Position numbers and translations under genes: made by a program. DNA of 64,000 nt. Origin: Bacteroidota bacterium. GTDB taxonomy: Bacteria; Bacteroidota; Bacteroidia; B-17B0; Aurantibacillaceae. Below the pieces are notes generated by a model, which saw nothing but the letters and a program-made list of their open reading frames with translations, ran no database searches and was not told the DNA's origin. The stretch spans positions 1-64,000 of the forward strand of contig JANYGK010000028.1 of assembly GCA_025362395.1 (NCBI GenBank), read 5' to 3'. This document shows positions 12,679-61,458 of this stretch, piece after piece (position 1 is the first letter of the stretch; each line of letters starts with the position of its first letter).

Positions 12679-12722
12679 CTTTTACATACTTTTACATAAG
12701 AAACTATTAAAAAACTATTAAA
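12679..12722 (+). repeat. Tandem repeats inside attL, candidate integrase arm sites
   Basis: Two adjacent copies of CTTTTACATA (12679-12688, 12689-12698) are followed by a 22-bp segment (12701-12722) with two CTATTAAA units spaced 11 bp apart. The 22-bp segment recurs exactly at 61437-61458, just inside attR. Paired short direct repeats at both ends fit arm-type binding sites for the integrase. Confidence 0.65.
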
Positions 12723-12730
12723 GTTTTTAT

Positions 12731-13900
12731 ATGAAGGCGAAAATAATTCTTTGGAAAAATAACAAATTAAAAGATGGTACTCACCCAATTAAGGTTAGGA
12801 TTACTTCAACCGTAGACGGAAAAACTCATCAAAAATACATTCCAGTGAACGTAAGTTCCTCCCTAGCACAATGGGATAATAAAACAAGCCGTGTAAATTC
12901 CAAACATCCAAACGCGGCGGCAGTTAATCGTAAAATTTCCAAAATCCAATTTGATTACGAAAATCAATTAATTGAAAACAATAATATAGATTTGAGGGGC
13001 TATAAAAACATTTCTTTTTTAGATTATTACGAGGATATATTAATAAATATTAAGGAGAAGCGATCCGCGGGGTTTTATCTATCTCATCAATCTATTAAAA
13101 ACAAATTCAAGGCATTTAATCCAAACTTAAAGTTTGAAAATTTTACTGTGCGAACCATTCGCGATTACGAAACCCACTTACTAGGCATTGGCAACTCAAG
13201 CAATACTATACACAACAACCTTAAACGCATTAAATACATAGTACAACAAGCCGTTAAAGATGGGTTAATTGAATACACAAAGAACCCTTTTTTGCACCAC
13301 AAATCAGAAAAAAACGAAACAAAGAAGACGCGTCTAGCCTTCGAAAAAATAAAAGAAATTGAAAATCTTAAATTAGAAAAAAATTCATCATTATGGAACA
13401 CGCGCAATTATTGGATGTTTTCCTTTTATTGCGGAGGCATCAGATTTGCCGATTTATGCCGACTAAAGGCCTCCAATTGTGCCGATGGACGTTTGATTTA
13501 CACAATGAACAAGACAACCAAGCATCGGAATATTTTATTAACCAATCAGGCGCAAAGCATACTCAGATTTTATAAAAGTAAATCCGTAAAATTATTATTC
13601 CCAATTCTTACTGACATACCAACAGATAAGTTCGAAGAATTGGCCGCAATAAGCAGCCGTAATACCATAGCTAATAAGAATTTAAAAAAATTGGCTTTAA
13701 TGATTGAATCTCCAATTAAATTATCATTCCACAGCTCCAGGCACTCTTTTGCGGATTACGCAAAGGAATCAGGTTTAGATATACACACTATAAAGGAACT
13801 TTTAGGCCACGAAAAAATATCCACAACAGAAATTTACATGAAGTCGTTTTATAAAGAACAAACGGACGATGCTATGAAAGCAATGTTCAAAACGTCATAA
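12731..13900 (+). CDS. int: Tyrosine-family site-specific integrase
   Basis: A 389-residue phage integrase. The N-terminal arm-binding part is MKAKIILWKNNKLKDGTHPI, typical of Bacteroidota integrases. A SAM-like core-binding domain covers about residues 100-200 (FLDYYEDILINIKEKRSAG onward). The catalytic domain has Arg238 (CGGIRFADL), Lys near 262 (TTKHRNI), His334-x2-Arg337 (HSSRHSF), His360 (LLGHEKIS) and nucleophile Tyr369 (STTEIYM). It catalyses recombination at the tRNA-Lys 3' end, next to the tandem repeats of attL. Confidence 0.96.
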   Translation: MKAKIILWKNNKLKDGTHPIKVRITSTVDGKTHQKYIPVNVSSSLAQWDNKTSRVNSKHPNAAAVNRKISKIQFDYENQLIENNNIDLRGYKNISFLDYYEDILINIKEKRSAGFYLSHQSIKNKFKAFNPNLKFENFTVRTIRDYETHLLGIGNSSNTIHNNLKRIKYIVQQAVKDGLIEYTKNPFLHHKSEKNETKKTRLAFEKIKEIENLKLEKNSSLWNTRNYWMFSFYCGGIRFADLCRLKASNCADGRLIYTMNKTTKHRNILLTNQAQSILRFYKSKSVKLLFPILTDIPTDKFEELAAISSRNTIANKNLKKLALMIESPIKLSFHSSRHSFADYAKESGLDIHTIKELLGHEKISTTEIYMKSFYKEQTDDAMKAMFKTS

Positions 13901-14901: not shown

Positions 14902-15525
14902 ATGTTTCACACAAAGAAAGAGTTTGCTTCCCTTGTCGGAAAGCCTACTAATGAATTATCTGTCCATATAAGTAGGGGTAAAGTAATCGTTCATACTGAC
15001 GGGCTGTTAATTGATGATGAAAATTTCAAGAACAGGGCGTATATTGAAAAGTGGCGCGGTAGAATGGTTGAGGAAAAATATTCTTCTGTAAAGTCAGACA
15101 CAAAAATTAAAGTGCCCGCTATTGAAAATAATGAACAGGAGGTTATCGGCGAAGGGCAGAGCTATACAGAGTCGGAAAGGCAGTTAAAATACTTAGATAC
15201 CCTTAAGCGGCAGAAAGAAATTGAAAAATTAGATATAGATATTGCAAAAAAAAGGGGGGAGGTGGTACCATCTGAGTTAATTAAACCGGTTTTTCTTCAA
15301 CATAATCAGTCGATACTAACCGAATTTAAGAACACGACCGATGAAATCATTAGAATTTTTAGTAAGAAAAAAGCTTTATCGGTTGAAGAAATGGCGGATG
15401 TTAAGGGTAAATGCGTTGAAAGCATTAATAGATCAATAGGAAAAGCCTTAGCCGCTACGGAAAAAGCAGTGGATTCTATTATCCAAAACCATTCAGAAAG
15501 TAAAGGAGTAGGACAGCATGGCTAA
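14902..15525 (+). CDS. Terminase small subunit, Nu1-like
   Basis: A 207-residue DNA-packaging protein. An N-terminal HTH-like part (MFHTKKEFASLVGKPTNELS) is followed by a basic linker, then the Nu1-type signature SERQLKYLDTLKRQKEIEKL and DIAKKRGEVVPSELI at about residues 90-130. That signature resembles the lambda Nu1 stretch ending 'rGelvpreev'. It should recognise the packaging site and recruit the large subunit, whose gene overlaps its end by 8 bp. Confidence 0.8.
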   Translation: MFHTKKEFASLVGKPTNELSVHISRGKVIVHTDGLLIDDENFKNRAYIEKWRGRMVEEKYSSVKSDTKIKVPAIENNEQEVIGEGQSYTESERQLKYLDTLKRQKEIEKLDIDIAKKRGEVVPSELIKPVFLQHNQSILTEFKNTTDEIIRIFSKKKALSVEEMADVKGKCVESINRSIGKALAATEKAVDSIIQNHSESKGVGQHG

Positions 15526-17521
15526 TGATTTTTCGGAACAATTAACCGAAATTATACGCTCGGGCCAAGTGACTATTTCAAATATAAAACCTGCGGACTG
15601 GACGGAGCGAAGTGTAATAATGCCAAAGCCTTTCCCTGGGCCTTATCGTTATTCATTTACTCCTTATTGGAGAGAGGTAATAAATCGTTTCGCTCAAGAC
15701 GATCCTATGAAATGGATGGCAATAAAGAAGGGCGCTCAAATTGGTTTTTCTGCCGGCGTCTTAATTCCTATCATTTTATGGATGATAAAAAATGACCCTT
15801 CAAACACATATTTTTTAGTAGGATCACCCGACTTAATAGAAAAGGCTACTGAAAAACTTGACATTGGAATTGATAACGCATCGCTTAGGCCTTATATAAA
15901 GCCACAAGTTCAAAGAAAAAGAAACAATAAAACCGGTGACACAAACAGCAAAAAAGAGTTTGTGGGCGGGTACGTCCATATTGGATCTGCAAATAACCAT
16001 AAAGACATTCGTGATGTATCTTTGAAGTATGGTTTATTTGACGATTGGGAATCAGTTAAGGGGAAATCTAAAGAATCAGGTAACACGCGTAAATTATTAG
16101 AACAACGTTTTGCGGCCTATGAAGATTCACACAAAATATGTTACGGCTCAACCCCTGAACTCGCAGAAAGCTCAAATATTGAAGCGGCTTATTTATTGGG
16201 TGATCAAAGAAAGTACATGATACCGTGTCCGTGCTGCGGTTCATTCATTGAATTAAAGTGGACGGTTACAAATGGGGATATAGTTGGTGGCATAACCTGG
16301 AAACTGAATGATCAAGGAAAAGTTATTTCCGAATCAGTTGGATATATTTGTCAGGAATGCGGTGATTTTTTTGACGATAAAAATAAATCTGAATGGCTTC
16401 TTGAAAAATATCATGGCGGACATGCATATTGGCAACCAACTGCAGAGCCAAGTAAGCCAGGATATTTTAGTTATCATATAAGCTCGCTCTACGCGCCTAT
16501 TGGTATGTTTGGCTGGGAACATTATGTAAATGATTATATAGAGGCAAACCCGGAAGGTCAACCGCGAGACGAGAGTTTATGGAAGACCTTTGTTAACGTG
16601 GTATTAGGAGAAACATACGAGGATCCGGGCGAGGAATTAAAAGCAAACCAATTGCAACAAAACATTCGTACTTATGAAATTGGAATGCTTCCGGAAAATA
16701 TCTCAATGCAGGACGGCAACGGTAAGATAGTTTTATTAACGGCAGCATGCGACTTAAACGGAAAGCTTGATGATGCGCGATTAGATTACGAGGTTGTGGC
16801 ATGGACTGAAACGGGAGCCTCTTATAGTATATCACATGGGAGTATAGGCACTTTTATCCCAAACGAATCAGCTAAAAAAAATAAAGTAGATAGAGCGCAT
16901 TGGAGTTATACGCATCACGTAAGTAATAGTGTGTGGCCCGAATATGATAAAATACTAAAAGCAGATTACGTCACTGATACGAATCGTAAAATGAAAATAT
17001 TAATAAGTGGTGTTGATACCGGGTTTTGTGAATCTGAAGCTTTTTCTTTCATAGACAATAATAATTCGTTTGTTTTTGGATTAAAGGGCGACAAAGAAGA
17101 TAAATACGTTAACCGATATATTGATCAGTCTATCTTTAAATTAGGGCTATCTCGCGCTAAGCTGTACATGCTTCGCGTGGGCAGAATAAAAGATATGCTT
17201 GCAGCCAGGGTTAGATTAAAATGGAATGCCCAAAACGACAATGAACAACCTGACGGTTTTATGAATTTTCCTTTGCCATCAAATGGTAAATACTTGTTTT
17301 CAAATTATTTTAGTCACTTTGAGGCAGAGGTTCGAAAACTGGACAAAGAAGGTAATTTTATTTGGGAGAAAAAGAATAGTTCGGTTCAGAATCACATGTT
17401 CGATTGTCACCTTTACAACATGGCACTGAAGGAAATATTTACACAAATGGTTTTAAAGCAATACAAAATAGTGAATGGAGGATGGTCTGAGTTTTGTAAA
17501 ATAATTATGGGTAAGAAATAG
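15518..17521 (+). CDS. Terminase large subunit, GpA family
   Basis: The packaging motor and nuclease, 667 residues, the usual size for lambda gpA relatives. The N-terminal ATPase has a deviant Walker A (KKGAQIGFSAG, about residue 70) and a Walker B region (YGLFDDWESV, about 175). A zinc-finger-like pair, PCPCCG and CQECG (about residues 235 and 275), follows. The C-terminal nuclease part includes VDTGFCESEAFSFI and the end segment around HMFDCHLYNMALKE. Its stop codon directly abuts the stop of the convergent minus-strand cassette, with no spacer at all. Confidence 0.93.
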   Translation: MANDFSEQLTEIIRSGQVTISNIKPADWTERSVIMPKPFPGPYRYSFTPYWREVINRFAQDDPMKWMAIKKGAQIGFSAGVLIPIILWMIKNDPSNTYFLVGSPDLIEKATEKLDIGIDNASLRPYIKPQVQRKRNNKTGDTNSKKEFVGGYVHIGSANNHKDIRDVSLKYGLFDDWESVKGKSKESGNTRKLLEQRFAAYEDSHKICYGSTPELAESSNIEAAYLLGDQRKYMIPCPCCGSFIELKWTVTNGDIVGGITWKLNDQGKVISESVGYICQECGDFFDDKNKSEWLLEKYHGGHAYWQPTAEPSKPGYFSYHISSLYAPIGMFGWEHYVNDYIEANPEGQPRDESLWKTFVNVVLGETYEDPGEELKANQLQQNIRTYEIGMLPENISMQDGNGKIVLLTAACDLNGKLDDARLDYEVVAWTETGASYSISHGSIGTFIPNESAKKNKVDRAHWSYTHHVSNSVWPEYDKILKADYVTDTNRKMKILISGVDTGFCESEAFSFIDNNNSFVFGLKGDKEDKYVNRYIDQSIFKLGLSRAKLYMLRVGRIKDMLAARVRLKWNAQNDNEQPDGFMNFPLPSNGKYLFSNYFSHFEAEVRKLDKEGNFIWEKKNSSVQNHMFDCHLYNMALKEIFTQMVLKQYKIVNGGWSEFCKIIMGKK

Positions 17522-18265
17522 CTAAACCTCAATATTAAAAAAATTATCCACTTCAATTAAAGTCTTGTCGTAATCTTTCACGTAAAACCCCAAAGCAACG
17601 CTTGAATTATAATAATCTGTTAACATTGTACCTCTTTCAATATTGATTTTTGCTGAAGAATTACGGCATTTCCTTTCAATATCTTTTCGCACCCAGCTGA
17701 AATGATGCATGTGAGACTCAATTAAGACAACATTTTCACAATTAATTCGACGCGTAGGATCAACATAAAATGGATATGTGACGTTCCCTGCTACTGTATT
17801 TAGGTTTAATTTATGAATAAATGGCACAAAATATCCGTCTTCTGTATCAAAACGAAGCGTAGGCTTTTTGAAATAGGTGTATAATTTACAAACAGATCCT
17901 TCTTTTCCTGAATCTATGTATTGCTGCTTTGCCTCTCCAAAATCTTTATAGCATTCATCAGTATCCATGTTAAGAAAATGAGTTGCTTCGCATTCGCAAG
18001 CAATGCTAATACCTAAATTTCTTTTTGCTGTTTCATTTAATGCGCCATGACCAATAATCGGATTGTAATTTTTAACAATAATTTCTTTATCAGGAAAATT
18101 GTTTGTTGCCAGCATTATTTCAAGCAATGGATCAAATAACTCTCCGTAATTACTAACGGATTGGTAAATAATTATTACAATATCAATATTACTTATTATT
18201 GAATTTAATGAAGCCTCAAAAATTTCAATGCCATCCCAGACATTGTATATAGCGGCCAATTTCAT
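17522..18265 (-). CDS. GT2-like glycosyltransferase of the phage cassette
   Basis: A 247-residue protein with a GT-A-like start (MKLAAIYNVWDGIEIFEASL) and a DxD-type metal site in FLNMDTDEC (about residues 95-103). It ends with histidine-rich IESHMHHFSWVRKDIE (about 185-200). It is the last gene of the minus-strand run that starts at 22.63 kb. The start codon overlaps the stop of the small gene before it by 1 bp (TAATG). The donor and acceptor are unknown; modification of a surface glycan or of the virion are both possible. Confidence 0.65.
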   Translation of the reverse strand: MKLAAIYNVWDGIEIFEASLNSIISNIDIVIIIYQSVSNYGELFDPLLEIMLATNNFPDKEIIVKNYNPIIGHGALNETAKRNLGISIACECEATHFLNMDTDECYKDFGEAKQQYIDSGKEGSVCKLYTYFKKPTLRFDTEDGYFVPFIHKLNLNTVAGNVTYPFYVDPTRRINCENVVLIESHMHHFSWVRKDIERKCRNSSAKINIERGTMLTDYYNSSVALGFYVKDYDKTLIEVDNFFNIEV

Positions 18266-18438
18266 TAAATTTCAAATATATCAGATATGTCTCTTTCCGC
18301 GGATTGGATAAGACTCTTTGTGTTTTCTGGATTTTCCCCAACAGAAACATCCATTACATCTTTAACAACTGCCACGGGAGTTATTTCAGCCTTAACCGCA
18401 GCGCTTAATAAATTAGGTATTATATCAAAAAATCCCAT
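18265..18438 (-). CDS. Small 57-residue phage protein
   Basis: It begins MGFFDIIPNLLSAAVKAEIT and ends ERDISDIFEI. It joins its neighbours tightly: stop/start TAATG with the next gene, and 1 bp between its ATG and the end of the methyltransferase gene. The predicted amphipathic helices contain no cysteine or catalytic motif. The function is unknown. Confidence 0.55.
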   Translation of the reverse strand: MGFFDIIPNLLSAAVKAEITPVAVVKDVMDVSVGENPENTKSLIQSAERDISDIFEI

Positions 18439-18439
18439 A

Positions 18440-19030
18440 TTAACTTGTTCTAAAATCTAATTTTTTAAATTTTTCAATACCAATAAATTCAGCAACATCA
18501 TTTTTTTTGAACACACAAAAAACATTCCATCCATCAGTGGTGTTTCCCATCGCAGGGTGCTCTCCAAGTTCTAAAACTTCGTAATTCATAGCGTTACATA
18601 ATTCACCATAAAATTCTTTTGTATAATAGTTACATCCATGACCCGGCCAATTACCAGTCTTTGGATTTTCATTAATCATGGTTCCTCCCGGAATAAGAAG
18701 ATCGTGTTTTGTTTTCCAACAATTATAAAAAGCCTCAATCCCATGTTTTCCATTATCAGAAACATGTTCAGATGTACCAAAATCAGTTACTAAATCAAAA
18801 TAACCTAGTTTATTTTCGTACGGTTTACTGAGATCAATAGGTATAGCTCCGTTTTCCTCACATAAATCAATACATTTATAGGCAACACCATGGCTATCAT
18901 ACAATTCGTGTGCGTATGGCGCCGGTAAATTTGGTTGATTGTAAAGGTTTTGAGCGCCAAGTTCTATAACGTTTTTTGCTCCGTTTTTGTATTTTGCTAT
19001 CAGCTCTGCTGAAAATGATGTTATTCCCAT
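18440..19030 (-). CDS. Class I SAM-dependent methyltransferase
   Basis: A 196-residue methyltransferase. SAM-binding motif I is KNVIELGAQN (about residues 19-28), the acidic end of strand 2 is YKCIDLCEENGA, and motif IV is DLVTDFGTSEHV (about residues 78-89). A late GGTMINENPKTGNWPGHG loop is well placed to contact substrate. It is in the minus-strand glyco cassette, so the likely target is a sugar or glycan, but this is inferred only from its neighbours. Confidence 0.75.
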   Translation of the reverse strand: MGITSFSAELIAKYKNGAKNVIELGAQNLYNQPNLPAPYAHELYDSHGVAYKCIDLCEENGAIPIDLSKPYENKLGYFDLVTDFGTSEHVSDNGKHGIEAFYNCWKTKHDLLIPGGTMINENPKTGNWPGHGCNYYTKEFYGELCNAMNYEVLELGEHPAMGNTTDGWNVFCVFKKNDVAEFIGIEKFKKLDFRTS

Positions 19031-19043
19031 GTTTATTTTTTAT

Positions 19044-19757
19044 TTATATACCCTCGCTCCACAAGCATACATTGTCACCAATAGGAACTAATCCTTTATG
19101 TGAAGCATAAGCAAAGTAAGTGCTTTGAGCGTTAGTTATTTTTAAATTCATTTTTTTAATTAAAATCGAAGCAACGGATTGATCATGCCGGTGGCCTTTT
19201 ACTCGCATATCATTTGATGTCTGTAGATTTTCATTTGACCATGAGCCCTGATACGAAACGCCATCGCTTGCGGCGCTTATGTATGCTTCTAAAAATTCTC
19301 TAATAACAGGGTTTTCTAAATCAAAACCCATAACGCAAGCCATTATCATTTTACTTCCGAAAGCTTCTTCGCGCGACATGCCGAACTTATCTAAACACGC
19401 ATCACTCGTGTAATCGCCAATAGAAAACCCCAGGTTATCAAAAAATAAATAGCCTTGCTCTATAATGTGGTCGAATAAAGGTTGAATATCTTTTGTCGCA
19501 TATACAACAGAGTCACACCATAACAATAAACCTTTCCAGTCCTGCTCTTCTGCCGCTTTTTTTATTGATAAGGCCTTAAATGCGTATGGAACAGCACCTA
19601 CCGATCCTTTATGGAGAGGTGAATTTATATGCCCGTAATCATTTATGCCTTTAAATTTACCTTCAAATCCGACTTGTTTTAAAGATAATTCCAAGCGCAT
19701 TAGAGCTTTTGCGTAATGCCCTACTCCATCCGCGAATGATACTATTGTTTTATTCAT
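19044..19757 (-). CDS. Glycosyltransferase-like protein
   Basis: A 237-residue protein. The pattern LLLWCDSVVYATKDIQPL (about residues 76-93) looks like the metal-binding DxD segment of GT-A enzymes with the second Asp lost, and GHRHDQSVASIL (about 188-199) is typical of GT8/GT77-like folds. Between them is a long FGSKMIMACVMGFD segment. It overlaps the next upstream gene by 8 bp. The assignment is by motif only. Confidence 0.55.
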   Translation of the reverse strand: MNKTIVSFADGVGHYAKALMRLELSLKQVGFEGKFKGINDYGHINSPLHKGSVGAVPYAFKALSIKKAAEEQDWKGLLLWCDSVVYATKDIQPLFDHIIEQGYLFFDNLGFSIGDYTSDACLDKFGMSREEAFGSKMIMACVMGFDLENPVIREFLEAYISAASDGVSYQGSWSNENLQTSNDMRVKGHRHDQSVASILIKKMNLKITNAQSTYFAYASHKGLVPIGDNVCLWSEGI

Positions 19758-20154
19758 AAGAAAACTCCTCCCCGGTTAATGCAAAGTATAAGTTTTGGAC
19801 TTGGTGGACATGCTCTATCTTTACCGGAAACAATCTGTGCCCATCGCGTGAGTTATATTGAACTTCAAACTTTTGATTCTTTTTGCTATATGAAAAGAAA
19901 AAATTATCAGTTTCTAAAACTAAAGATATAATGTTTTCTTTAAACCCAAACTTCAACAGCCATTCTTCCGTGAGGGGGATTGGCTCGATGTATCTATTTT
20001 GTAAATCATTACTAAACCAAGCCTCGTAATTCATTGATCCATATTGACCAAAATCCACATCTTGGTTTATCCCATCTTCTGTTATAAATTCAATTTTTGT
20101 AATTAAATTGTTACTTAAAACAAAATTCCCTATCCTTAATTCACTTGCTTGCAT
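19750..20154 (-). CDS. Phage protein of the 'ELRIGN' type, function unknown
   Basis: A 134-residue protein. It begins MQASELRIGNFVLSNN and ends with a hallmark HVHQVQNLYFALTGEE. The middle, PIPLTEEWLLKFGF, is also a recurring feature of small proteins seen in Bacteroidota phages. No catalytic residues are evident. It overlaps both neighbours (8 and 19 bp), so it belongs to the same transcript as the sugar-modifying genes. Confidence 0.65.
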   Translation of the reverse strand: MQASELRIGNFVLSNNLITKIEFITEDGINQDVDFGQYGSMNYEAWFSNDLQNRYIEPIPLTEEWLLKFGFKENIISLVLETDNFFFSYSKKNQKFEVQYNSRDGHRLFPVKIEHVHQVQNLYFALTGEEFSYE

Positions 20155-20762
20155 AACAATAGATTTTCGCCTGATTCATAAATAATTTTTGTCATGCCGA
20201 AATTAGCGCAATATTCTAGAATTTCTAACTTGTTAATTGGGTTAGAATTCCACTCAATGCATAGAAGTTTTGTTTCAGTAAGGTCTATTTGTTTTAAGAT
20301 TATAATATCAAAGCCTTCAGCGTCAATCGTTATAAAATCAAAATTAGATTCACCTGTATATTTAAGAAAATCCAGATAACTTAAGCCGTTAATTGTTTCC
20401 TCATGAAACTTAATTCCTGCCTCTCTCCACCTTATTGTTTCTTCCTCTTTTATCGAAGACAGCAAAGCAACATCTGACTTATCCAATAGATGATCGGCGC
20501 TAACTTTTAGTGTAAATTTTCCTGAATCTTCAGTTATTGCTCCTTTGAAACAATAAACATTATCGTTATCAACGTGAGTTCCATGTAGCCGTTCAAATGC
20601 TTGCGCGGAAGGCTCTACTAAAACCGCCCACCAGCCCCTTTCGATAAGGGCCAATGAATTACTAAAAGTCCTTCCGTCATTAGCGCCTATATCCAATAAG
20701 TTTCCTTTAAAATCTTTAAAATAATCTAAGATATATTTTTCTTCTTCGTTTTGAGAGTACAT
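20136..20762 (-). CDS. FkbM-family methyltransferase
   Basis: A 208-residue SAM methyltransferase. Motif I is GNLLDIGANDGRTFSNS (about residues 19-35), post-I is AVLVEPSAQAFERL, and FDFITIDAEGFDIIIL (about 139-154) is the FkbM signature. FkbM proteins usually O-methylate sugar hydroxyls of polysaccharides or glycans. It sits between glycosyltransferase-like genes, which supports a glycan target. Confidence 0.85.
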   Translation of the reverse strand: MYSQNEEEKYILDYFKDFKGNLLDIGANDGRTFSNSLALIERGWWAVLVEPSAQAFERLHGTHVDNDNVYCFKGAITEDSGKFTLKVSADHLLDKSDVALLSSIKEEETIRWREAGIKFHEETINGLSYLDFLKYTGESNFDFITIDAEGFDIIILKQIDLTETKLLCIEWNSNPINKLEILEYCANFGMTKIIYESGENLLLCKQVN

Positions 20763-20764
20763 AT

Positions 20765-21337
20765 TTATTTGTTAGTTAAGTATTTATAATGATAGATTTT
20801 ATCGTTTATTACACTTTCAGTTTTTAAATGGCCTGAGTCATGTAATTCCTTTGCCCATGCATAATCTTCGCCGAGCCAAATATTAGGAAACCTCACCTTC
20901 ACTGCATGTGCCCGCTTCATTGGAGTTATGTGGTTAGGATGCCTTAAATAATACGGACTTCCATCTGCTTTGGGTTTATTAATATATGGATGTCCTAAAC
21001 GAATTTCCCAATCCGCTTCATGTATTCCGTCTGTTGACATTGTGCCATTTATTCCAATAACATCGTTACCCTGCAAGCATGCATCAAAAATTTTTTTAAT
21101 TGAGTGGTCGAAAATATCATCATCATCATCAATAAACCAAGTATAAACTCCTTTTGATTTTTCGAGTAACGAATTTCTTTTCTCTCCGGTTGAAACTTCC
21201 CTGCCGCGAACGTCTGAGATAATTTCTATCATTTCTAAATATTCATCAGGACATGTAGAAATAATTCTATTCCTAATGTGCTTAAAATGCTCTACTCTTT
21301 CCGGGAGGGTTGGTATTAATATGGATAGTAAAATCAT
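20765..21337 (-). CDS. Glycosyltransferase family 2 protein
   Basis: 190 residues from the ATG at 21337 (MILLSILIPTLPERVEHF). This start gives a 4-bp overlap with the previous gene's stop, as is usual in this cassette; an earlier in-frame start would bury 54 bp in that gene. GT-A features: IPTLPER at the start of strand 1, YTWFIDDDDDIFDHSI (about residues 80-95, five consecutive Asp at the metal site), and WLGEDYAWAKELHDSG near the catalytic-base position. Confidence 0.85.
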   Translation of the reverse strand: MILLSILIPTLPERVEHFKHIRNRIISTCPDEYLEMIEIISDVRGREVSTGEKRNSLLEKSKGVYTWFIDDDDDIFDHSIKKIFDACLQGNDVIGINGTMSTDGIHEADWEIRLGHPYINKPKADGSPYYLRHPNHITPMKRAHAVKVRFPNIWLGEDYAWAKELHDSGHLKTESVINDKIYHYKYLTNK

Positions 21338-21984
21338 AACGGAAAACCCTCCGCCATGTGCTTTGCAAATAAAGATTTCCCTTGATCCCAATTAGCCTCC
21401 GAACGAATATATGTTTCATCTCTTTCCGCTAAACCTAAAGAGCAGTGTTCGTGTGGAAATTTTAATTGAGGAGCCTCTTTTAACCAGCAATTATTAGTAA
21501 CAGTCCAAAACAGGTGTTCATCAACAAACATTGATTTATATTCGGGATGCCAAAAGTAACCTAGTTTTTCGTACAGTTTTCGGTTCATTATTGGAATAGT
21601 CAAAACGGGAACGTTGAATTTTTGCAAACAATCATCAACCTTTAAAAGCATCGGAGTGCTATTATTCATCTGTTCATTAATTAACACATCCCATTCATCA
21701 GGGCATTTAAAATCATCTGATAAATAAATCAATATATCGCCCGTCGCTACTTTTGCCGCATGATTAGTAGCTTCAACAACGCAAGTATTATTATTTACAA
21801 TACCGCAGGAACCTACGACATCACCAAATAACCTAGCGTATTCATTAATCGAATTATCAGATTCGTCAAGCGATAAAACATGTTCTATGTTTTCAGGAAA
21901 CCAGGCTTTGCTAATCCAATAGTCATAAGCAGCTTTTGCTTTTTCGGGTCTTTGGCGGGATGGATGTATTAGGCTAATTTTCAT
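21334..21984 (-). CDS. Glycosyltransferase-like protein (GT-A fold)
   Basis: 216 residues from the ATG at 21984 (MKISLIHPSRQRPEKAKAA). Likely metal-binding residues are in GDILIYLSDDFKCPDEWD (about residues 90-107), with a conserved-looking MFVDEHLFWTV (about 157-167) for the acceptor site. It overlaps the upstream gene by 11 bp and the downstream gene by 4 bp. Donor and acceptor are not predictable. Confidence 0.75.
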   Translation of the reverse strand: MKISLIHPSRQRPEKAKAAYDYWISKAWFPENIEHVLSLDESDNSINEYARLFGDVVGSCGIVNNNTCVVEATNHAAKVATGDILIYLSDDFKCPDEWDVLINEQMNNSTPMLLKVDDCLQKFNVPVLTIPIMNRKLYEKLGYFWHPEYKSMFVDEHLFWTVTNNCWLKEAPQLKFPHEHCSLGLAERDETYIRSEANWDQGKSLFAKHMAEGFPL

Positions 21985-22633
21985 TTTTAAAATAGTTACT
22001 ATAAAATTCAAAGCTTTCTATATCCATTAAATCACTCAATATTTTTTTATCAGCATCCGACTCATTAAACCTATGCAATTTATTAGTATGTCCTGTGCCC
22101 CCACACTTCCCTACACCATGTTTAATGCCCATGCAAATATTTTTTTCGGGATGGAAAGTACATCCTTTTAATGTTTCCCATAAATGCATATCTGTATATG
22201 GTTCATTATCGGCGCACCACTCAAAATTAAGATCAGGTTTAATTAAAGTACTCATTGCGCTCGATCTCGACATGTGCCACATGGTGAAGTGGGCAAATAA
22301 TTTAATGTGATAATATATTGTGTAGTCTGTTCCAAAAATATCTGGACGCCCACTTGAGAACCATGCCTTTGTAATGATTTCTAAATAGTCGGGCGAATAC
22401 CATTCATCATTTTCAATCAAAGCTATTACGTCAAGATCCTTTCCTCTTAATAAATCATAACCTATTCGGTATCGCTGGGTAATATCAACATCATCTGAAA
22501 TCGCTTGATAATTTACAACCTCAATGCATGCGGGCTGAATTGTTTGTTGCTTAATTAACCGTAAACAGTTTTCTAAAAACAACGGCCTGTCATTTCTGTC
22601 CGGGATTATTACTCCAATTTTGAGATTTTGCAT
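21974..22633 (-). CDS. Glycosyltransferase family 2-like protein, first gene of the cassette
   Basis: 219 residues from the ATG at 22633 (MQNLKIGVIIPDRNDRPLF). A GT2 core is seen: VIIPDRN, then VIALIENDEWYSPDYL (about residues 72-87) as the nucleotide-binding/DxD region. Its first four codons lie inside the 70-bp repeat that also supplies a TATATTTG promoter box on this strand, so the cassette appears to be driven from that repeat. A start at 22657 is possible but would place the start nearly on the -7 box. Confidence 0.8.
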   Translation of the reverse strand: MQNLKIGVIIPDRNDRPLFLENCLRLIKQQTIQPACIEVVNYQAISDDVDITQRYRIGYDLLRGKDLDVIALIENDEWYSPDYLEIITKAWFSSGRPDIFGTDYTIYYHIKLFAHFTMWHMSRSSAMSTLIKPDLNFEWCADNEPYTDMHLWETLKGCTFHPEKNICMGIKHGVGKCGGTGHTNKLHRFNESDADKKILSDLMDIESFEFYSNYFKNEN

Positions 22634-22692
22634 GTTTTGGTCATACAAATATAACATTTTATTTCATTGTGTAATATTTTTACAATCAAAAT
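22623..22692. repeat. 70-bp repeat, copy A (divergent promoter region)
   Basis: Identical over 70 bp to 36751-36820. It lies between the minus-strand cassette and the sheath gene. On the minus strand it carries TATATTTG (22652-22645) about 12 bp before the cassette's ATG, and the codons for MQNL. On the plus strand it carries an AT-rich leader with the imperfect palindrome GTAATATTTTTAC ahead of the sheath ATG. Confidence 0.9.
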
Positions 22693-22700
22693 ATTTTAAA

Positions 22701-24224
22701 ATGGGTTCAATTTCAAATGCGGTTTTAGATACTTATATTTCAAGGGTAGTCGGATATCAACTTACAACCGGGAATTTTCAAACAGTAACCCCTAATTTAC
22801 CTCAAAGAATTGCAGTGTTAGCGGAAGCTAACGAGTCCAATCAAGCAACGTTAGATCTTACTCCTTTTCAAATTACTTCAGCACAACAAGCAGGCAGTCG
22901 TTATGGTTACGGTTCCCCTATTTATAACATTTCTAGAATCCTAATCCCTTTAAATGGCGGCGGCGTTAGCGGTATTCCTGTATGGATTTATCCGCAAGCT
23001 AAAGCATCAGGCGCAACTTTTAAATCTATTGGTATAACACCTACAGGTGTGGCAATAGATAATGGAACACATTCTGTAATTATTGCAGGTCGTGGAGGCT
23101 TAGACGGACAGGCTTATGATATAAACATTAAAGCCGGCGACACGAGAATTGAAATTACGGCAAAAATATCAGATACAATTAACGCAGTTTTAGGATGCCC
23201 TGTAACAGCTACAGACGATGATTACACTAACAATATAAAAAGCAAATGGGCAGGATTAACTGCCAATGACCTTAGCGTTAGCGTTAATACTAACGGAAAT
23301 TCTTTAGGGATTACTTACACTATCTCAAATATTACTTCGGGATCAGGAACGCCTAGCGTTCAACCCGCATTAAATTTATTTGGTAACGATTGGAATACAA
23401 TTGTTGTAAACGGATACGGAACCGTTTCAAGCGTAATGACTGCTTTAGAGCAGTTTAACGGTAGGCCCGATGCAACTAATCCAACAGGTAGATATGTTGG
23501 AATTATTATGAAACCATTCATCGCAATTACAGGAACGACTATTGACGATCCAAGCTCAATTTCGGACGCAAGATTAAACGACTTAACCGTCGCATTAGCG
23601 CCCGCACCACTTTCGGCAGGACTTCCAATGGAAGCAGCCGCAAACATGACCGTATTAGCCGCCTTAGTTTCTCAAAACACGCCGAACTTAGACGTTGCAG
23701 GAAATAATTATCCGGATATGCCAACCCCTGCATTAATCGGATCTATGGCATCTTATACTAACAGAAATCTTTTTGTAAATAAAGGTTGCTCAACTGTTGA
23801 TTTAGTTGGCGGGCAATATGTAGTCCAGGATTTTATTACAACCTATCATAAGGTAGGCGAAAATCCTCCTCAATTTAGGTATTTCAGAAACATTATGCTG
23901 GATTTAAATATTCGATTCAGTTATTATTTACTTGAGCAGATAAATGTAGTAGATCATCAAATTGCGGCAGATACAGATACTGTAACTGCTCCAAAAATAA
24001 TTAAACCAAAACAATGGTTGCAGATATTAAACGCATTTGCTGACCAATTAGGATCAAGGGGGCTTATTGTTGATGTTGCGTTTATGCAGGCGTCAATTAA
24101 GGTTGGCTTAAGTATCAATAATCCTGACAGATTAGAAACGTATTTTAAATATAAACGTTCAGGGTTCACTAGGGTATCAAGCACTACTGCGGAAGCAGGT
24201 TTTAATTTCGGAACACTAAACTAA
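22701..24224 (+). CDS. Tail sheath protein (Mu gpL-like)
   Basis: 507 residues from the ATG at 22701, 8 bp after the 70-bp repeat. It forms the contractile outer tube. The start MGSISNAVLDTYISRVVGYQ and the segment RIAVLAEANESNQATLDLTP (about residues 34-53) fit Mu-type sheath proteins. The C-terminal polymerisation domain contains FRYFRNIMLDLNIRFSYYLLEQ and RLETYFKYKRSGFTRV. A tube gene follows 14 bp downstream, the usual order. The longer in-frame start at 22620 would need translation through the repeat and is rejected. Confidence 0.92.
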   Translation: MGSISNAVLDTYISRVVGYQLTTGNFQTVTPNLPQRIAVLAEANESNQATLDLTPFQITSAQQAGSRYGYGSPIYNISRILIPLNGGGVSGIPVWIYPQAKASGATFKSIGITPTGVAIDNGTHSVIIAGRGGLDGQAYDINIKAGDTRIEITAKISDTINAVLGCPVTATDDDYTNNIKSKWAGLTANDLSVSVNTNGNSLGITYTISNITSGSGTPSVQPALNLFGNDWNTIVVNGYGTVSSVMTALEQFNGRPDATNPTGRYVGIIMKPFIAITGTTIDDPSSISDARLNDLTVALAPAPLSAGLPMEAAANMTVLAALVSQNTPNLDVAGNNYPDMPTPALIGSMASYTNRNLFVNKGCSTVDLVGGQYVVQDFITTYHKVGENPPQFRYFRNIMLDLNIRFSYYLLEQINVVDHQIAADTDTVTAPKIIKPKQWLQILNAFADQLGSRGLIVDVAFMQASIKVGLSINNPDRLETYFKYKRSGFTRVSSTTAEAGFNFGTLN

Positions 24225-39704: not shown

Positions 39705-40302
39705 TATAACACACGTAATACTATCACAAGGCTATGAGATTGTAAGAGATAGGGTAGCTATTATTTTAACTGATGAAATAGAAAGGCAAGCAATCTTATC
39801 TTATGATGCATATTTGGATCTCGTGGAAGTTAAAGTTGAGCAATCGAACCCCGTAGATAAAATTGAAATTCCTACGATAAATGTTTCATTTGCAAGTAAT
39901 AGCTTTAGTAACAAAAATGCAGGAGGCAGTGAAGATGGTTTAATAACCATTTACGTTGATGTTTACACGAGCGCCAAAACATCTTTATCTTTAGTTCCAG
40001 GTGATAAAATTGCATCAATACGGTGTCAAAAACTATTAGGCCTTTGTAGATATATATTATCAGATCCAATCTATAAAACTTTAGGCTTGCTAGCACCTTC
40101 AATTTCTCGTGTTTATTCAGGAGAAATAAATATCAAACAAGTAGCTCCAGACGATGCAATTAATCAAACAATGGGGAGATATACGTTCTACGTTTTGTGT
40201 AATGAGTCTAATAAATTAATAGTTCCAAACTTAATAGCCGGGTATCAAACTACTGTTAATTTGGATAATACAACATTAGGTTATTTTTATGAAGGAAGTT
40301 AA
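39697..40302 (+). CDS. Tail terminator-like protein (tentative)
   Basis: 201 residues. An initial helix-strand pair (ILSQGYEIVRDRVAIILTDE) and an 'INVSFASNSFSNKNAGG' loop followed by ITIYVDVYTSAKTSLSLVPG resemble gpU/minor tail terminator proteins, which cap the tail tube and join it to the head. The stop overlaps the next gene's ATG (TAATG). Confidence 0.55.
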   Translation: MPNITHVILSQGYEIVRDRVAIILTDEIERQAILSYDAYLDLVEVKVEQSNPVDKIEIPTINVSFASNSFSNKNAGGSEDGLITIYVDVYTSAKTSLSLVPGDKIASIRCQKLLGLCRYILSDPIYKTLGLLAPSISRVYSGEINIKQVAPDDAINQTMGRYTFYVLCNESNKLIVPNLIAGYQTTVNLDNTTLGYFYEGS

Positions 40303-41921
40303 TGAGTAGTACTAGGGCGCAATTAAGATCATTATTGGCAACGACAGTTCTTTCCGGAGGGAGAAGAACTACTGCTCAATTTGTGCGTGATTTTGAAAAT
40401 GAAATAATCGCTTCATTAATAAATAAAATTGATGATGCAAATGTGGTTAATGGATATTTAGGTATTGATAGTTCAGGAAAAGTAAACTCCTCTTTTATAA
40501 AATCAGGAAATAATTTAGGTTACTATTTACGCGATGATGGTACCTGGCAATCTGTCAGCGCAAACAAAAAACAAACTGAAAAATTCACAATAACTGGAAC
40601 AACTTTATCATTAACATATAGTCCCACTTTTGTTTATGGTTTTTACGCAAACGGTTTTAGATTAACAGATGGAGACGGGTATACATTATCAGGAAATATA
40701 ATTACTTTTTTAAATAGTTATGTCGGGCAATCACTTGTGGCTATTTACGATTATATTTCTTCTCCGATACCTGTTCCCCATAGTATAGGGACGTTGGCAT
40801 TAAATCAATTTAATGCAGGTGATTATTCCATTGTAGGAGCCGCAAATCCTACATTTAACTCAGGATCATCAATAACATTAAGCGGAGGAACTGCGGGAGT
40901 AGGCGATTACATAACGTATAATGGTTTTATTTCTTCAAGAAATAGCTTAAAAAGAACTTTGAGATTTACTGTTGATACATTTGATGCTTCATCTTACGGC
41001 ATTGGGCCAAAAATGGTTAGCATAAATTCTTCTGCGGGAAGCCAATTTAATAATACTGTTTTTGGGGTTACTTCGAACAATTCTGAAAAAGGTAAAATAT
41101 ATTGGTCCGGCACGGCTGTTAATAATACTGACGGTTCACCAAACGGAAATAGTGGCGCATCTGTTGTTTTGGTTAATTTAAATAACACAATGGAATTAAT
41201 TGTAGAACAAAAGGATCTTTTATTTACTATGAAATTTTATAATTTGACCTTGGATCCGAGTCGGACTTCCCCAGCAACTTATTCATACCAAATGCCTACT
41301 TCATACCCGTTTAATAATGGCGTATACCACAATACAGCAAAAAATGCAATTGCATGTTTCGGGGGAACTCAAACAATTATATATGATAATACAGAAACGG
41401 ATGAGTATGAATATTGTGATTTAGCAATTATAGGTGATAGCAAAACAACAGGATTGGGTTGCAACACAGTAGTCGATAGGTTTGGCTACTTATGGTCATC
41501 AAATAATCCAACAAAAAAGGTATCTATATTTTCAGGATCATCCGATAAAACAAATGAAGTTATTTTAGCATTACCCGACATTATAAAATCAAAACCAAAA
41601 AAAACTATTGTATTTATAGGTAGGAATGATATTTCAAATGCCATAGCACCAAGTGTTTGGCAGGTGAATTTACAAACTATAGATGCTGCCTTATCTGCTT
41701 TTGGCACGGTTTATTATCAACTACCAACTCCAGAGGTAGTTCTAAACCAAACATCATTAACTAATTATCTTAATGCTTCATTCCCTGGCAGAGTGATTCC
41801 TGTACCTTCTAGTTTTGTTGCAAATACTGACAATGTAAACGATTCGGGAAACTACATACATCCAAACACGGGCGGTCATTTAAAAATATACAACACTCAA
41901 GCCTCAATTATAACCTTATAA
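40302..41921 (+). CDS. Tail fibre with C-terminal SGNH/GDSL hydrolase domain
   Basis: 539 residues. The N-terminal 150 residues look like a fibre shaft/attachment part (INKIDDANVVNGYLGIDSSG, YYLRDDGTWQSVSANKKQTE). The C-terminal domain (about 370-539) shows SGNH blocks: LAIIGDSKTTGLG (Ser), TIVFIGRNDISNA (Gly-Asn-Asp), and NVNDSGNYIHPNTGGH (Asp and His). It is probably a receptor-processing esterase or deacetylase acting on a host surface polysaccharide. The oligosaccharide target is unknown. Confidence 0.8.
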   Translation: MSSTRAQLRSLLATTVLSGGRRTTAQFVRDFENEIIASLINKIDDANVVNGYLGIDSSGKVNSSFIKSGNNLGYYLRDDGTWQSVSANKKQTEKFTITGTTLSLTYSPTFVYGFYANGFRLTDGDGYTLSGNIITFLNSYVGQSLVAIYDYISSPIPVPHSIGTLALNQFNAGDYSIVGAANPTFNSGSSITLSGGTAGVGDYITYNGFISSRNSLKRTLRFTVDTFDASSYGIGPKMVSINSSAGSQFNNTVFGVTSNNSEKGKIYWSGTAVNNTDGSPNGNSGASVVLVNLNNTMELIVEQKDLLFTMKFYNLTLDPSRTSPATYSYQMPTSYPFNNGVYHNTAKNAIACFGGTQTIIYDNTETDEYEYCDLAIIGDSKTTGLGCNTVVDRFGYLWSSNNPTKKVSIFSGSSDKTNEVILALPDIIKSKPKKTIVFIGRNDISNAIAPSVWQVNLQTIDAALSAFGTVYYQLPTPEVVLNQTSLTNYLNASFPGRVIPVPSSFVANTDNVNDSGNYIHPNTGGHLKIYNTQASIITL

Positions 41922-41922
41922 A

Positions 41923-44085
41923 ATGAAAAAAATAATTTTAATACTATTAATAATTTCAGCTAATAATTTATTGGCTCAGCTATTGCCATTTACATCTATT
42001 CAAAGGACTACTCCCGGTAGTTTATTTATGTCTGTAGGCACTGGAACAAATGGCATTATAACCGCTACAGCTTCTATTCCTTTGTCAAATATAACAGGTA
42101 CAGCATCGCTTTTGCAAACACTTTCGATCAATACCAATTCACTTTCAATCAGTTCAGGAAACACAATTGTATTACCAACAAGTACATTAACCTCTGGATT
42201 TTTCTCCGCAACATCCCCACTATCTTACAACAGCACAACAGGCGTGTTTACGATTACACCCTTAACTATTACCAATACAGGTTCAGGTAATGCTGCCATA
42301 ACAGGAAACACTTTAAACATTCCTAACACTACCTATAGTTATACTCCTGAAAACGTTTCTAATAAAGCTACATCATTCGGAACGCTTAATAACACATTAT
42401 ATCCAAGTACACAGGCTGTTAGTAATTATATTACAGGATTTAATTATTTAACGGCAAATCAAACAATCACATTTACGGCAAGCGGAGATGTTACAGGTAC
42501 CGCCAATGGCAACACTTCAATATCACCGACATTTAGTTTGGCAACCGTAAATTCTAACACGGGAACTACAGGGAGCGCAACTACAACAAACAGCATTACG
42601 GTTAACGGAAAGGGGCTTGTTACGGGTGTTGGTACTATTCCTATTCAAATAGCTGAGTCGCAAGTAACGAATTTAATTACTGATTTATCAAATAAGGTTC
42701 CGTTTACAGGGGCCTCGTCAACCGTTAATATAAACACACAACCATTAGTAGCGGGTCGTTTATCGTTGGGCACTGCAAATCCTATAACAAGTTCAAACAT
42801 ATACATAGGATCAAATATTACCGGCGCAACTAATTTTCAAAGTGTATTTACTGAAAATACTGTCCAATCAGACGTTACCGGTTCTGCTTACGGATTTATC
42901 AGTTCAATAGGGACGCAGGCTACAACTTTTACTTTGCCTGTACTTTATCACTATGTTGCCCAAAAGGCAGCATTTGGAGCGGGTTCAACTGTTACGGCCC
43001 AGTATGGATTTTTAGCATCAAATCTAACAGGTGCTACTTCTAATTATGGGTTTTACGGAGGCATGGCTGCTAATACTGGTGTTTGGAATATATACATGGC
43101 AGGAAATGCAAATAATTATTTAGCGGGTAATTTAGGGATAGGGGTTGCTTTACCAACCGTAAAATTGCAGGCATTATCTACTGCCGAACAACTAAGGTTA
43201 GGGTATGACGGTAGTAATTATGCATCATTCATAGTAGGTTCAAACGGGTTAACAACAATAAGTGCCACGGGAACAGCTCCCGCTTTTGCTATGTCAAACA
43301 GATTAGCTGTTACTACTAATTCAGGTGTAATTTCCCTTCGTGATTTTGTTGGAGCGGGTGCGGGTACTTCCGCTATATACATGGGAACTGTCACTCCTAA
43401 TACAGTTAATCAAACATTAGCCTTTGACGGATCATCTACTTATTTAAATGGTCAGGCAAGTAACTCACTTTATCTTGCTATTGGGTCTACAAATGTAGTA
43501 AGACTAGCTCAAAACTTTCAAATATATACACCTTTTGCAGCAAGTTTTGGGGCAGTTACTCCATTCAATTTTACTCAACCTAATAATAGCGGGCAAACTG
43601 CATCTACAGTAATACCAGGTTTTAAACATACAGGAAATATTCGCGGATGGAATGGCGGAAACATTACATCTATGCAACCGGAAGTTTATTTTAGCGCACC
43701 GACTTATAGCGCAACAGCGGCTAGTACACTTAGTATTGTGACAGGATTACTTGTCGACGCTCCTATAGCAGGAACTAATGTAACATTTACAAATGCTTAT
43801 GGGATTGTTACTAATGGAAGTATTGGTTTAACTACAACAGGAACCGGTATCACAATTAAAGAAGGAGCTAATTCGACAAGCGGAACAGCAACGTTAGTGG
43901 CGGGTGCGGTAACAGTATCAAATACAAACATCACGGCAACAAGTCGAATATTCTTAACGGGCAATACAATAACTAACGCGGGAATCTTAACCAAGGTTAA
44001 TAATGTTGGTACCGGATTCACCATAACCAGTACTAATGGTGCAGACGTTAGGGCAGTAGATTATTTTATTATACAAGGAAATTAA
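41923..44085 (+). CDS. Large fibre-like protein with signal peptide
   Basis: 720 residues. It has a clean Sec signal peptide (MKKIILILLIISANNLLAQ, cleavage after AQ) followed by Thr/Ser/Gly/Asn-rich beta repeats. The fibre-type unit YTPENVSNKATSFGTLNNTL and LYPSTQAVSNYITGF (about residues 140-170) recurs in Bacteroidota tail fibres. A signal peptide is unusual for a virion part; the protein may be exported to the lysogen or cell surface, or act as an adhesin, instead of assembling in the cytoplasm. No chaperone domain is seen at the C-terminus. Confidence 0.7.
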   Translation: MKKIILILLIISANNLLAQLLPFTSIQRTTPGSLFMSVGTGTNGIITATASIPLSNITGTASLLQTLSINTNSLSISSGNTIVLPTSTLTSGFFSATSPLSYNSTTGVFTITPLTITNTGSGNAAITGNTLNIPNTTYSYTPENVSNKATSFGTLNNTLYPSTQAVSNYITGFNYLTANQTITFTASGDVTGTANGNTSISPTFSLATVNSNTGTTGSATTTNSITVNGKGLVTGVGTIPIQIAESQVTNLITDLSNKVPFTGASSTVNINTQPLVAGRLSLGTANPITSSNIYIGSNITGATNFQSVFTENTVQSDVTGSAYGFISSIGTQATTFTLPVLYHYVAQKAAFGAGSTVTAQYGFLASNLTGATSNYGFYGGMAANTGVWNIYMAGNANNYLAGNLGIGVALPTVKLQALSTAEQLRLGYDGSNYASFIVGSNGLTTISATGTAPAFAMSNRLAVTTNSGVISLRDFVGAGAGTSAIYMGTVTPNTVNQTLAFDGSSTYLNGQASNSLYLAIGSTNVVRLAQNFQIYTPFAASFGAVTPFNFTQPNNSGQTASTVIPGFKHTGNIRGWNGGNITSMQPEVYFSAPTYSATAASTLSIVTGLLVDAPIAGTNVTFTNAYGIVTNGSIGLTTTGTGITIKEGANSTSGTATLVAGAVTVSNTNITATSRIFLTGNTITNAGILTKVNNVGTGFTITSTNGADVRAVDYFIIQGN

Positions 44086-60981: not shown

Positions 60982-61446
60982 GTGAAAAAACAATTTTTTT
61001 TAATGTGTGCAATGTTAACCATCACATTAGCTTTCTGTTCGTGCGAGGATCCCATTAAGCAAAACGAATATCACATTAAGGAGCTAAAGGTCTACACCGA
61101 AACTATAAGCCCACTAGATGTAAGTGATAGCTCTTATTTAACTATATTTGACTTGCAACTCAATAAACGGGTAAGGCCAGGGATTAAACTAGACTGCTAT
61201 TTTACCATATTGACCAAGAATGGCCTTAAATTTAAAGGAAGCGTCCCTTTATATACAGACGATAAAGGGAATCCGTTAAAAATAAGCGCTAGAGAACTTT
61301 TTCTAAAAAGATGGTCCAGTGCATCTGAATACCAAAAAATACAACAGGTTACAAAAGTAAACTTAAAGTCAATAAAAATATTTTTAACAAATTATACAGA
61401 TAAAAAAGAAACTATCATTGATCAATACTTTAACGAAAACTATTAA
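60982..61446 (+). CDS. Prophage lipoprotein next to attR
   Basis: 154 residues with a lipoprotein signal (MKKQFFLMCAMLTITLAFCSC, lipobox AFCSC). The mature part looks beta-rich (IKLDCYFTILTKNGLKFKGS). The last codons overlap the 22-bp candidate arm site. Cargo at the end of a prophage, on the lysogenic side of the switch, is typical of conversion or superinfection-exclusion genes, but no function can be proved. Confidence 0.65.
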   Translation: MKKQFFLMCAMLTITLAFCSCEDPIKQNEYHIKELKVYTETISPLDVSDSSYLTIFDLQLNKRVRPGIKLDCYFTILTKNGLKFKGSVPLYTDDKGNPLKISARELFLKRWSSASEYQKIQQVTKVNLKSIKIFLTNYTDKKETIIDQYFNENY

Positions 61447-61458
61447 AAAACTATTAAA
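61437..61458 (+). repeat. Arm-type repeat inside attR
   Basis: An exact 22-bp match to 12701-12722 with two CTATTAAA units, 64 bp left of attR. Confidence 0.7.

Follow-up and report, generated by a model that had tools for sequence, protein, structure and literature searches.

A glycosyltransferase and methyltransferase cassette at the terminase-sheath junction of a Bacteroidota prophage, a candidate system for virion glycosylation

Based on analysis of a 64,000-nucleotide stretch from a Bacteroidota bacterium (Aurantibacillaceae; assembly GCA_025362395.1, contig JANYGK010000028.1, positions 1-64,000, forward strand), referred to as the window throughout, we propose that a gene cassette between the large terminase and tail sheath genes of a temperate, contractile-tailed prophage serves to glycosylate and O-methylate a virion protein in the cytoplasm. 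We give this reading a probability of roughly 0.55, the virion being the substrate that we infer. The cassette runs against the late genes and encodes five GT-A-type glycosyltransferases (A, B, C, F and I), an FkbM-family methyltransferase (D) and a probable second methyltransferase (G), along with the open reading frames (ORFs) E and H. It would represent one version of a variable glycan locus in contractile-tailed phages of Bacteroidota and relatives. The soluble glycosyltransferases would act in the host cytoplasm on host nucleotide sugars, assembling a short glycan with one of the phage's structural proteins as its direct acceptor. Gene I, with a predicted fold nearest to peptide glycosyltransferases, may attach the first sugar, A, B, C and F would then lengthen the chain, and the FkbM protein together with the second methyltransferase would cap the sugars with O-methyl groups. 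A housekeeping-type promoter would permit these enzymes to be made separately from the late operon, ready once the virion proteins appear.

Nine minus-strand ORFs fill 99.7% of positions 17522-22633, all starting with ATG and open throughout, with neighbours overlapping by 1-19 bases or separated by gaps of 1-13 bases (Table 1). The stop codons of gene I and the terminase (17519-17521) touch tail to tail, leaving a spacer of zero. The original prediction of a tightly packed, opposite-strand glycosyl- and methyltransferase cassette at this junction, abutting the terminase stop without a spacer, is thus borne out, and its estimate of eight to nine genes with four or five GT-A proteins can be sharpened to nine genes with exactly five. 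Chance ORFs are ruled out by synteny, homologues of A, B, C, D, F, G and I being similarly arranged in other viral contigs, and by the purifying selection described below. A decayed remnant is ruled out for the window, since its nine genes all have open frames and its copies of A, F, G and I retain the alignment columns that do not vary among relatives. An origin from the host chromosome is rejected, as gene I turned up in a single genome among 87 of the order and among 395 of the phylum, the hit in both cases being the window itself (the order sample has the same number of genomes as the family). The sheath likewise occurs in one of the 395 phylum genomes. Gene F was detected in 3 of the 87 order genomes; of the two besides the window, one match is weak (E 2e-5) and the other lies in locus L154, alongside relatives of C and D.

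Gene A was identified through a PDB profile match to the putative glycosyltransferase 3bcv (E 2e-4) and aligns to gene C (hhalign, E 2.8e-5); residues E74 and D76 are invariant across 23 rows, the window copy among them. Genes B and C match PHROG glycosyltransferase families and score 18.6 and 17.5 bits against Pfam Glycos_transf_2, below its gathering cut-off of 23.3. Gene C has relatives in 34 Mycobacterium and 17 Gordonia phage records, with about 32-36% identity to their glycosyltransferases among the matches listed, and gene B has only weak matches, to Streptomyces and Arthrobacter phages. Family searches returned no match for genes F and I, and the PDB sequence search yielded nothing useful for either; their AlphaFold2 models, both with a predicted local distance difference test score (pLDDT) of 96.3, have a GT-A fold, most of the chain superposing on GT-A enzymes of solved structure. 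For gene F the best VIA match is the PBCV-1 capsid glycosyltransferase 2p72 (Z 15.9, 178 residues, 3.1 A, 16% identity), which we take to be the A064R domain, in a tie with BoGT6a (Z 15.7) and other GT6-type enzymes. For gene I it is the peptide S-glycosyltransferase ThuS (Z 14.8, 164 residues, 2.7 A; next row 13.2), and the Foldseek list is headed by the peptide S-glycosyltransferase SunS; alignment of gene I with gene C by hhalign was empty.

An FkbM and a class I methyltransferase had been predicted together. The former is confirmed by two curated models, gene D scoring above the cut-offs of PF05050 (38.3 bits vs 22.7) and TIGR01444 (43.9 vs 37.7), and the latter, gene G, is a probable methyltransferase, so called because of a VIELGAQN-like motif, recognised by eye, and its exchange with TylF-type or FkbM enzymes in the slot described below. 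Family and fold-profile searches with gene G gave no match above threshold, and its hhalign comparison with gene D was empty. In locus L002 (9898-10185) gene G is shrunk to 95 codons, its middle lost and the adjoining genes intact. Both the ELRIGN-type and the 57-residue protein of the original prediction are present. The former, gene E, looks like a passenger because members of phrog_10066 elsewhere sit on the late strand beside the terminase, in L101 and L103 directly after it. Gene H, the 57-residue protein, has no relative in the viral loci compared or in 50,697 phage records, and could be a late insertion or no gene.

Table 1. Coordinates of the cassette, its flanks and other prophage features in the window (aa, amino acids).
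Feature	Positions	Strand	Basis or remark
Gene A, GT-A-type glycosyltransferase, 219 aa	21974..22633	-	PDB profile; first cassette gene, E-x-D motif retained
Gene B, glycosyltransferase, 216 aa	21334..21984	-	phrog_14945 glycosyltransferase 2.5e-16
Gene C, glycosyltransferase, 190 aa	20765..21337	-	phrog_14775 7.5e-26, phrog_8858 1.9e-23
Gene D, FkbM-family methyltransferase, 208 aa	20136..20762	-	PF05050, TIGR01444
Gene E, ELRIGN-type protein of 134 aa, probably a passenger	19750..20154	-	phrog_10066 2.4e-25, family with no assigned function
Gene F, GT-A glycosyltransferase, 237 aa	19044..19757	-	predicted fold, nearest retaining enzymes
Gene G, probable class I methyltransferase, 196 aa	18440..19030	-	VIELGAQN-like motif by eye, slot exchange
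Gene H, orphan ORF, 57 aa	18265..18438	-	ORF only
Gene I, GT-A glycosyltransferase, 247 aa	17522..18265	-	predicted fold; last gene
TAnnTTTG (-7 type) box	22646..22653	-	begins 20 bases ahead of gene A
Terminase large subunit, one flank	15518..17521	+	tblastn, 37% to annotated terminase of Flavobacterium phage FCL-2
Tail sheath, other flank	22695..24224 (ATG at 22701)	+	phrog_165 tail sheath 7.5e-79
Tyrosine integrase	12731-13900		beside tRNA-Lys gene
22-base AT-rich direct repeat	12701-12722 and 61437-61458		next to tRNA-Lys and integrase
Protein preceding fibre	40302-41921		weak GDSL hydrolase match
Fibre, 720 residues, 27% Ser+Thr	41923-44085		K1-lyase-type C-terminal domain

The same junction is either occupied or empty in related viruses. 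A search of viral contigs through the sheath, a query independent of the cassette, gave 54 loci, 30 of them with both terminase and sheath in view. Sixteen of these 30 junctions are empty, the two genes lying 9-199 bases apart or, in L108, having open frames that overlap, some of the loci being near-identical to one another (e.g. L119 and L141). Cassettes of glycosyltransferases and methyltransferases, 3.8-7.9 kb in length, occupy eleven junctions, and nine of these are distinct (L102 is 99.99% identical to L101, and L115 100% to L113). L152 carries a lone A gene at the junction, and L103 and L120 carry unrelated genes. A second sample, collected through gene I (24 loci), adds seven distinct full junctions (L076, L079, L080, L084, L085, L086 and L088). 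Flavobacterium phage FCL-2, which has a related terminase, shows another gene order and no annotated cassette. We found no published description of a terminase-sheath cassette at the level of titles and abstract openings, a depth that does not establish absence from print.

It is improbable, in our estimate, that the junction is simply a tolerant insertion site and the cassette a neutral or mobile passenger of no present use to the phage. Such a passenger would be in agreement with the 16 of 30 relatives that lack a cassette, the unrelated genes in L103 and L120 and the truncated gene G of L002. However, the median ratio of nonsynonymous to synonymous substitution rates (dN/dS), computed over related pairs that overlap and with none suitable for A and I, lies at 0.07-0.16, namely 0.073 for B (66 pairs), 0.114 for C (402), 0.099 for D (123), 0.084 for F (193) and 0.158 for G (62); these five genes are under purifying selection in related loci. 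Invariant residues are retained as well, and the content of the junction is repeatedly glycan enzymes. Decayed remnants in related phages, which the original prediction had named as evidence that would speak against it, were for the most part not seen, cassettes being intact or absent with the exception of L002.

Where the cassette is present, its orientation and content vary. Among 23 distinct loci with a cassette beside the sheath, the window included, 17 run against the late genes and six on the same strand (L086, L106, L107, L123, L128 and L138; L106 shows only gene I as recognised), as read from gene orders with L152 omitted. In L086, L107 and L138 the order from A to I is intact and the whole block is flipped. 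The end genes are kept, A or X coming first and I, or I and A, last, with exceptions such as L109. Gene content was compared across 15 cassettes, with functions of unlabelled ORFs in the variants assigned by eye. The middle consists of B-C-D-F-G in the window, L101, L117, L130, L076 and L084, of other glycosyltransferases and methyltransferases in L085, L086, L088, L105 and L107, and of yet other genes in L109/L110 and L113. RtcB-type, asparagine-synthetase-like and hexapeptide-repeat transferase look-alikes were noted by eye at L109:4750-6195 and L113:3971-5822. Gene F of the window is 77-82% identical to that of L117, L130, L076 and L084, loci with terminase and sheath identities of 46-61% and 55-60%, respectively, and merely 24-28% identical to gene F of L079, L088 and L100. 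The higher identity of F than of the flanking genes is what an exchange of gene sets would give; alternatively, F may be under unusually strong constraint.

A related module, with the order B-D-(methyltransferase slot)-C-F, was recovered through gene C in a third sample of 68 loci, in 14 of which B, D, C and F are not all in view. Across the other 54 loci, which are partly redundant (the C proteins of the whole set form 26 clusters at 95% identity), the slot between D and C is occupied by gene G (16 loci), by another FkbM (13) or by a TylF-type enzyme (10), or has no gene (12), and 3 have other orders. The module stands beside the terminase in another phage group, with terminase genes following it in L003 and L010, and in L010 and L031 two further glycosyltransferases precede it. 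We tentatively suggest, as a possibility somewhat short of even odds, that the terminase-sheath junction acts as a virion 'serotype' locus, the phage counterpart of the bacterial O-antigen locus, in which a fixed site and conserved ends (A or X, and I) would frame an exchangeable middle and specify differing coats; the methyltransferase slot of the related module, filled by three unrelated enzymes or empty, would be in keeping with this. If so, the same phage body could wear different methylated glycan coats. Phage glycan cassettes as such are already known, and the new part is a variable, occupied-or-empty glycan locus with exchangeable methyltransferases.

The original prediction named either the host surface or the virion and its fibres as target; the evidence leans to the virion, with the host surface less likely. 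The virion is favoured because no membrane partner accompanies the cassette, because it is located in the structural block, and because the module is shared with phages without a detected integrase (none of ten gene C-sampled records of 32-38 kb has a tyrosine or serine integrase, though these records may be incomplete). No flippase, polymerase, lipid-linked starter transferase or other membrane partner was found with the cassette, and the whole genome holds no GtrA homologue. Among 140 ORFs of 110 codons or more on the cassette strand of 16 cassettes, four reach a hydropathy of 1.6; a membrane segment is clear in one of them, at the C-terminus, two resemble signal peptides, and in the fourth it is a core strand of gene I, the same strand that gives gene I of the window a value of 1.69. 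No nucleotide-sugar synthesis gene was recognised among the cassette genes of the window, and activated sugars must therefore come from the host. Hence the predicted 'complete small pathway' holds as a phage-borne gene set for building and methylating a glycan, supported by families, predicted folds and synteny, and fails as to completeness.

Alternatively, the enzymes may be expressed from their own promoter in the lysogen and alter surface polysaccharide or O-glycoproteins of the host, blocking the receptor for other phages, an explanation that we consider unlikely though worth weighing. The phage of the window is a prophage that has its tyrosine integrase next to tRNA-Lys, cassettes of this type mostly run opposite to the late genes and in 9 of 16 loci are preceded by a housekeeping-type promoter box, and the phage receptor is probably a glycan or polysaccharide, as judged from the K1-lyase-type domain and the weak GDSL match in the fibre genes. 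The Gtr-type seroconversion cassettes of temperate phages are prophage-borne glycosyltransferases; the window cassette differs from them in having no GtrA-type flippase or other membrane partner. Prophage changes of surface polysaccharide normally require membrane steps, and none of the components listed above was found. The occurrence of the module in records without detected integrases and the retention, across lineages, of a position among virion genes also argue against conversion of the host.

A promoter of its own, which the original prediction had placed within a repeat, is supported by a TAnnTTTG box ahead of gene A, presumably the -7 element recognised by the primary sigma factor of Bacteroidota; the sequence surrounding the box amounts to no more than a weak, imperfect, AT-rich repeat. 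Such a box lies within 40 bases before the first cassette ATG in the 9 loci mentioned (L105, in which no first-gene start was found, being excluded from the 16), compared to 0.79 loci expected in shuffles and a maximum of 4 of 16 over 500. As seven of the nine boxes finish 4-12 bases ahead of the ATG, a near-leaderless transcript is expected. A scan with the Sigma-70 consensus gave sites no commoner than in shuffles, and at the 3' end of the cassette no terminator was seen, folding there being no better than that of shuffled sequence.

To our knowledge, glycosylation of tailed-phage virions has been established experimentally for few phages, mostly mycobacteriophages. The closest likeness to the window is found in mycobacteriophage Clusters J and O (LittleE, Omega, Corndog), for which passages of PMC3706429 and PMC4351075 describe several glycosyltransferases and a methyltransferase among virion genes, with content that varies between relatives. 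In Cluster J this is an insertion of 8-10 genes, including glycosyltransferases and a methyltransferase, between capsid and connector genes (PMC3706429), and in Corndog, where an O-methyltransferase and three glycosyltransferases lie within the structural genes and were detected during infection of cells, a role in capsid modification has been suggested for them (PMC4351075). Capsid and tail-tube proteins of Mycobacterium phages are reported, in a passage of PMC12619734 that cites earlier work, to bear glycans at their C-termini. The window cassette shares with this type the position inside the virion structural gene block and the combination of several glycosyltransferases with a methyltransferase and no membrane partners, and gene C has a homologue in LittleE gp15 (31.7% identity). 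In LittleE and Phendrix, the two records examined out of 51 actinophage records with a gene C relative, these relatives lie between capsid and tail genes. The systems differ in that those of Clusters J and O stand between portal, capsid and connector genes rather than between terminase and sheath, and in that those of LittleE and Phendrix are on the late strand, whereas window-type cassettes are mostly on the opposite strand, with their own promoter box, an FkbM protein and exchangeable methyltransferases. In the chlorovirus PBCV-1, according to a passage of PMC5408694, soluble virus-coded glycosyltransferases and a predicted methyltransferase domain decorate the capsid in the cytoplasm. The likeness extends to gene F, the best fold match of which is a PBCV-1 capsid enzyme; however, PBCV-1 is an algal virus with multi-domain proteins, and the resemblance of gene F is one of fold at 16% identity, tied with GT6-type enzymes.

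The distribution of the cassette on phage gene trees is compatible with a link to the tail. On the sheath tree (25 sheath-sampled rows) its presence requires 5 changes vs 8.1 in shuffles, 7-10 of 500 shuffles being as low, and on the tape measure tree (19 rows) 4 vs 6.6; on the terminase tree the 8 changes vs 8.1 are random. These trees leave out L152, L103, L120 and L108, as well as L102 and L115, which are near-duplicates. An earlier link to tail genes had included loci found through gene I, and was weakened when repeated on sheath-sampled loci only.

Several observations weigh against virion glycosylation. For the 15 loci with all five genes, the sheath tree gives 3 changes vs 4.9, with 40-41 of 500 shuffles as low, and the tube is unclustered; physical linkage to the sheath explains the clustering equally well as function. 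The window phage is temperate, which also fits lysogenic conversion, and the promoter type would permit expression in a lysogen. The fold matches are silent on the acceptor, many non-protein glycosyltransferases scoring close behind, and viral records in which no integrase was detected may be incomplete pieces. Of the cassette genes, C alone is related to genes of the named precedents, A, F and G having no relatives in the phage collection. A virion glycan is predicted from the gene content. Ser/Thr-rich regions occur in the 720-residue fibre and at the C-terminal end of the tape measure, and nothing singles out one acceptor.

A further use of glycosyltransferases, decoration of modified bases in the phage genome, is very unlikely here. 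Phage glycosyltransferases can glycosylate DNA, as stated in a passage of PMC12619734; however, the sole thymidylate-synthase-family gene of the genome is on contig C25, not on the prophage contig C55, and relatives with an empty site package using related terminases.

Should the locus glycosylate virions, another large group of phages would prove to have widespread glycan coats that can be swapped and are capped with methyl groups, and pairs with an occupied and an empty site would provide natural controls on the purpose of such coats, be it hiding from binding proteins, tuning of adsorption or stability.

The prophage extends from 12.7 to 61.4 kb of the window, with recognised genes for terminase, sheath, baseplate, portal, a Clp-type protease and the major head protein. 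The 22-base repeats are likely its attachment (att) sites, which gives a length of about 48.7 kb. Among 25 records of sheath phages, a tyrosine integrase was found in 3 of the 15 that carry the cassette and in 1 of the 10 that lack it. On the late strand, a few tens of bases ahead of the sheath start, a TATTTTTACA-like string was noted by eye in the window, L101, L117, L076 and L143, and is possibly a late promoter or operator.

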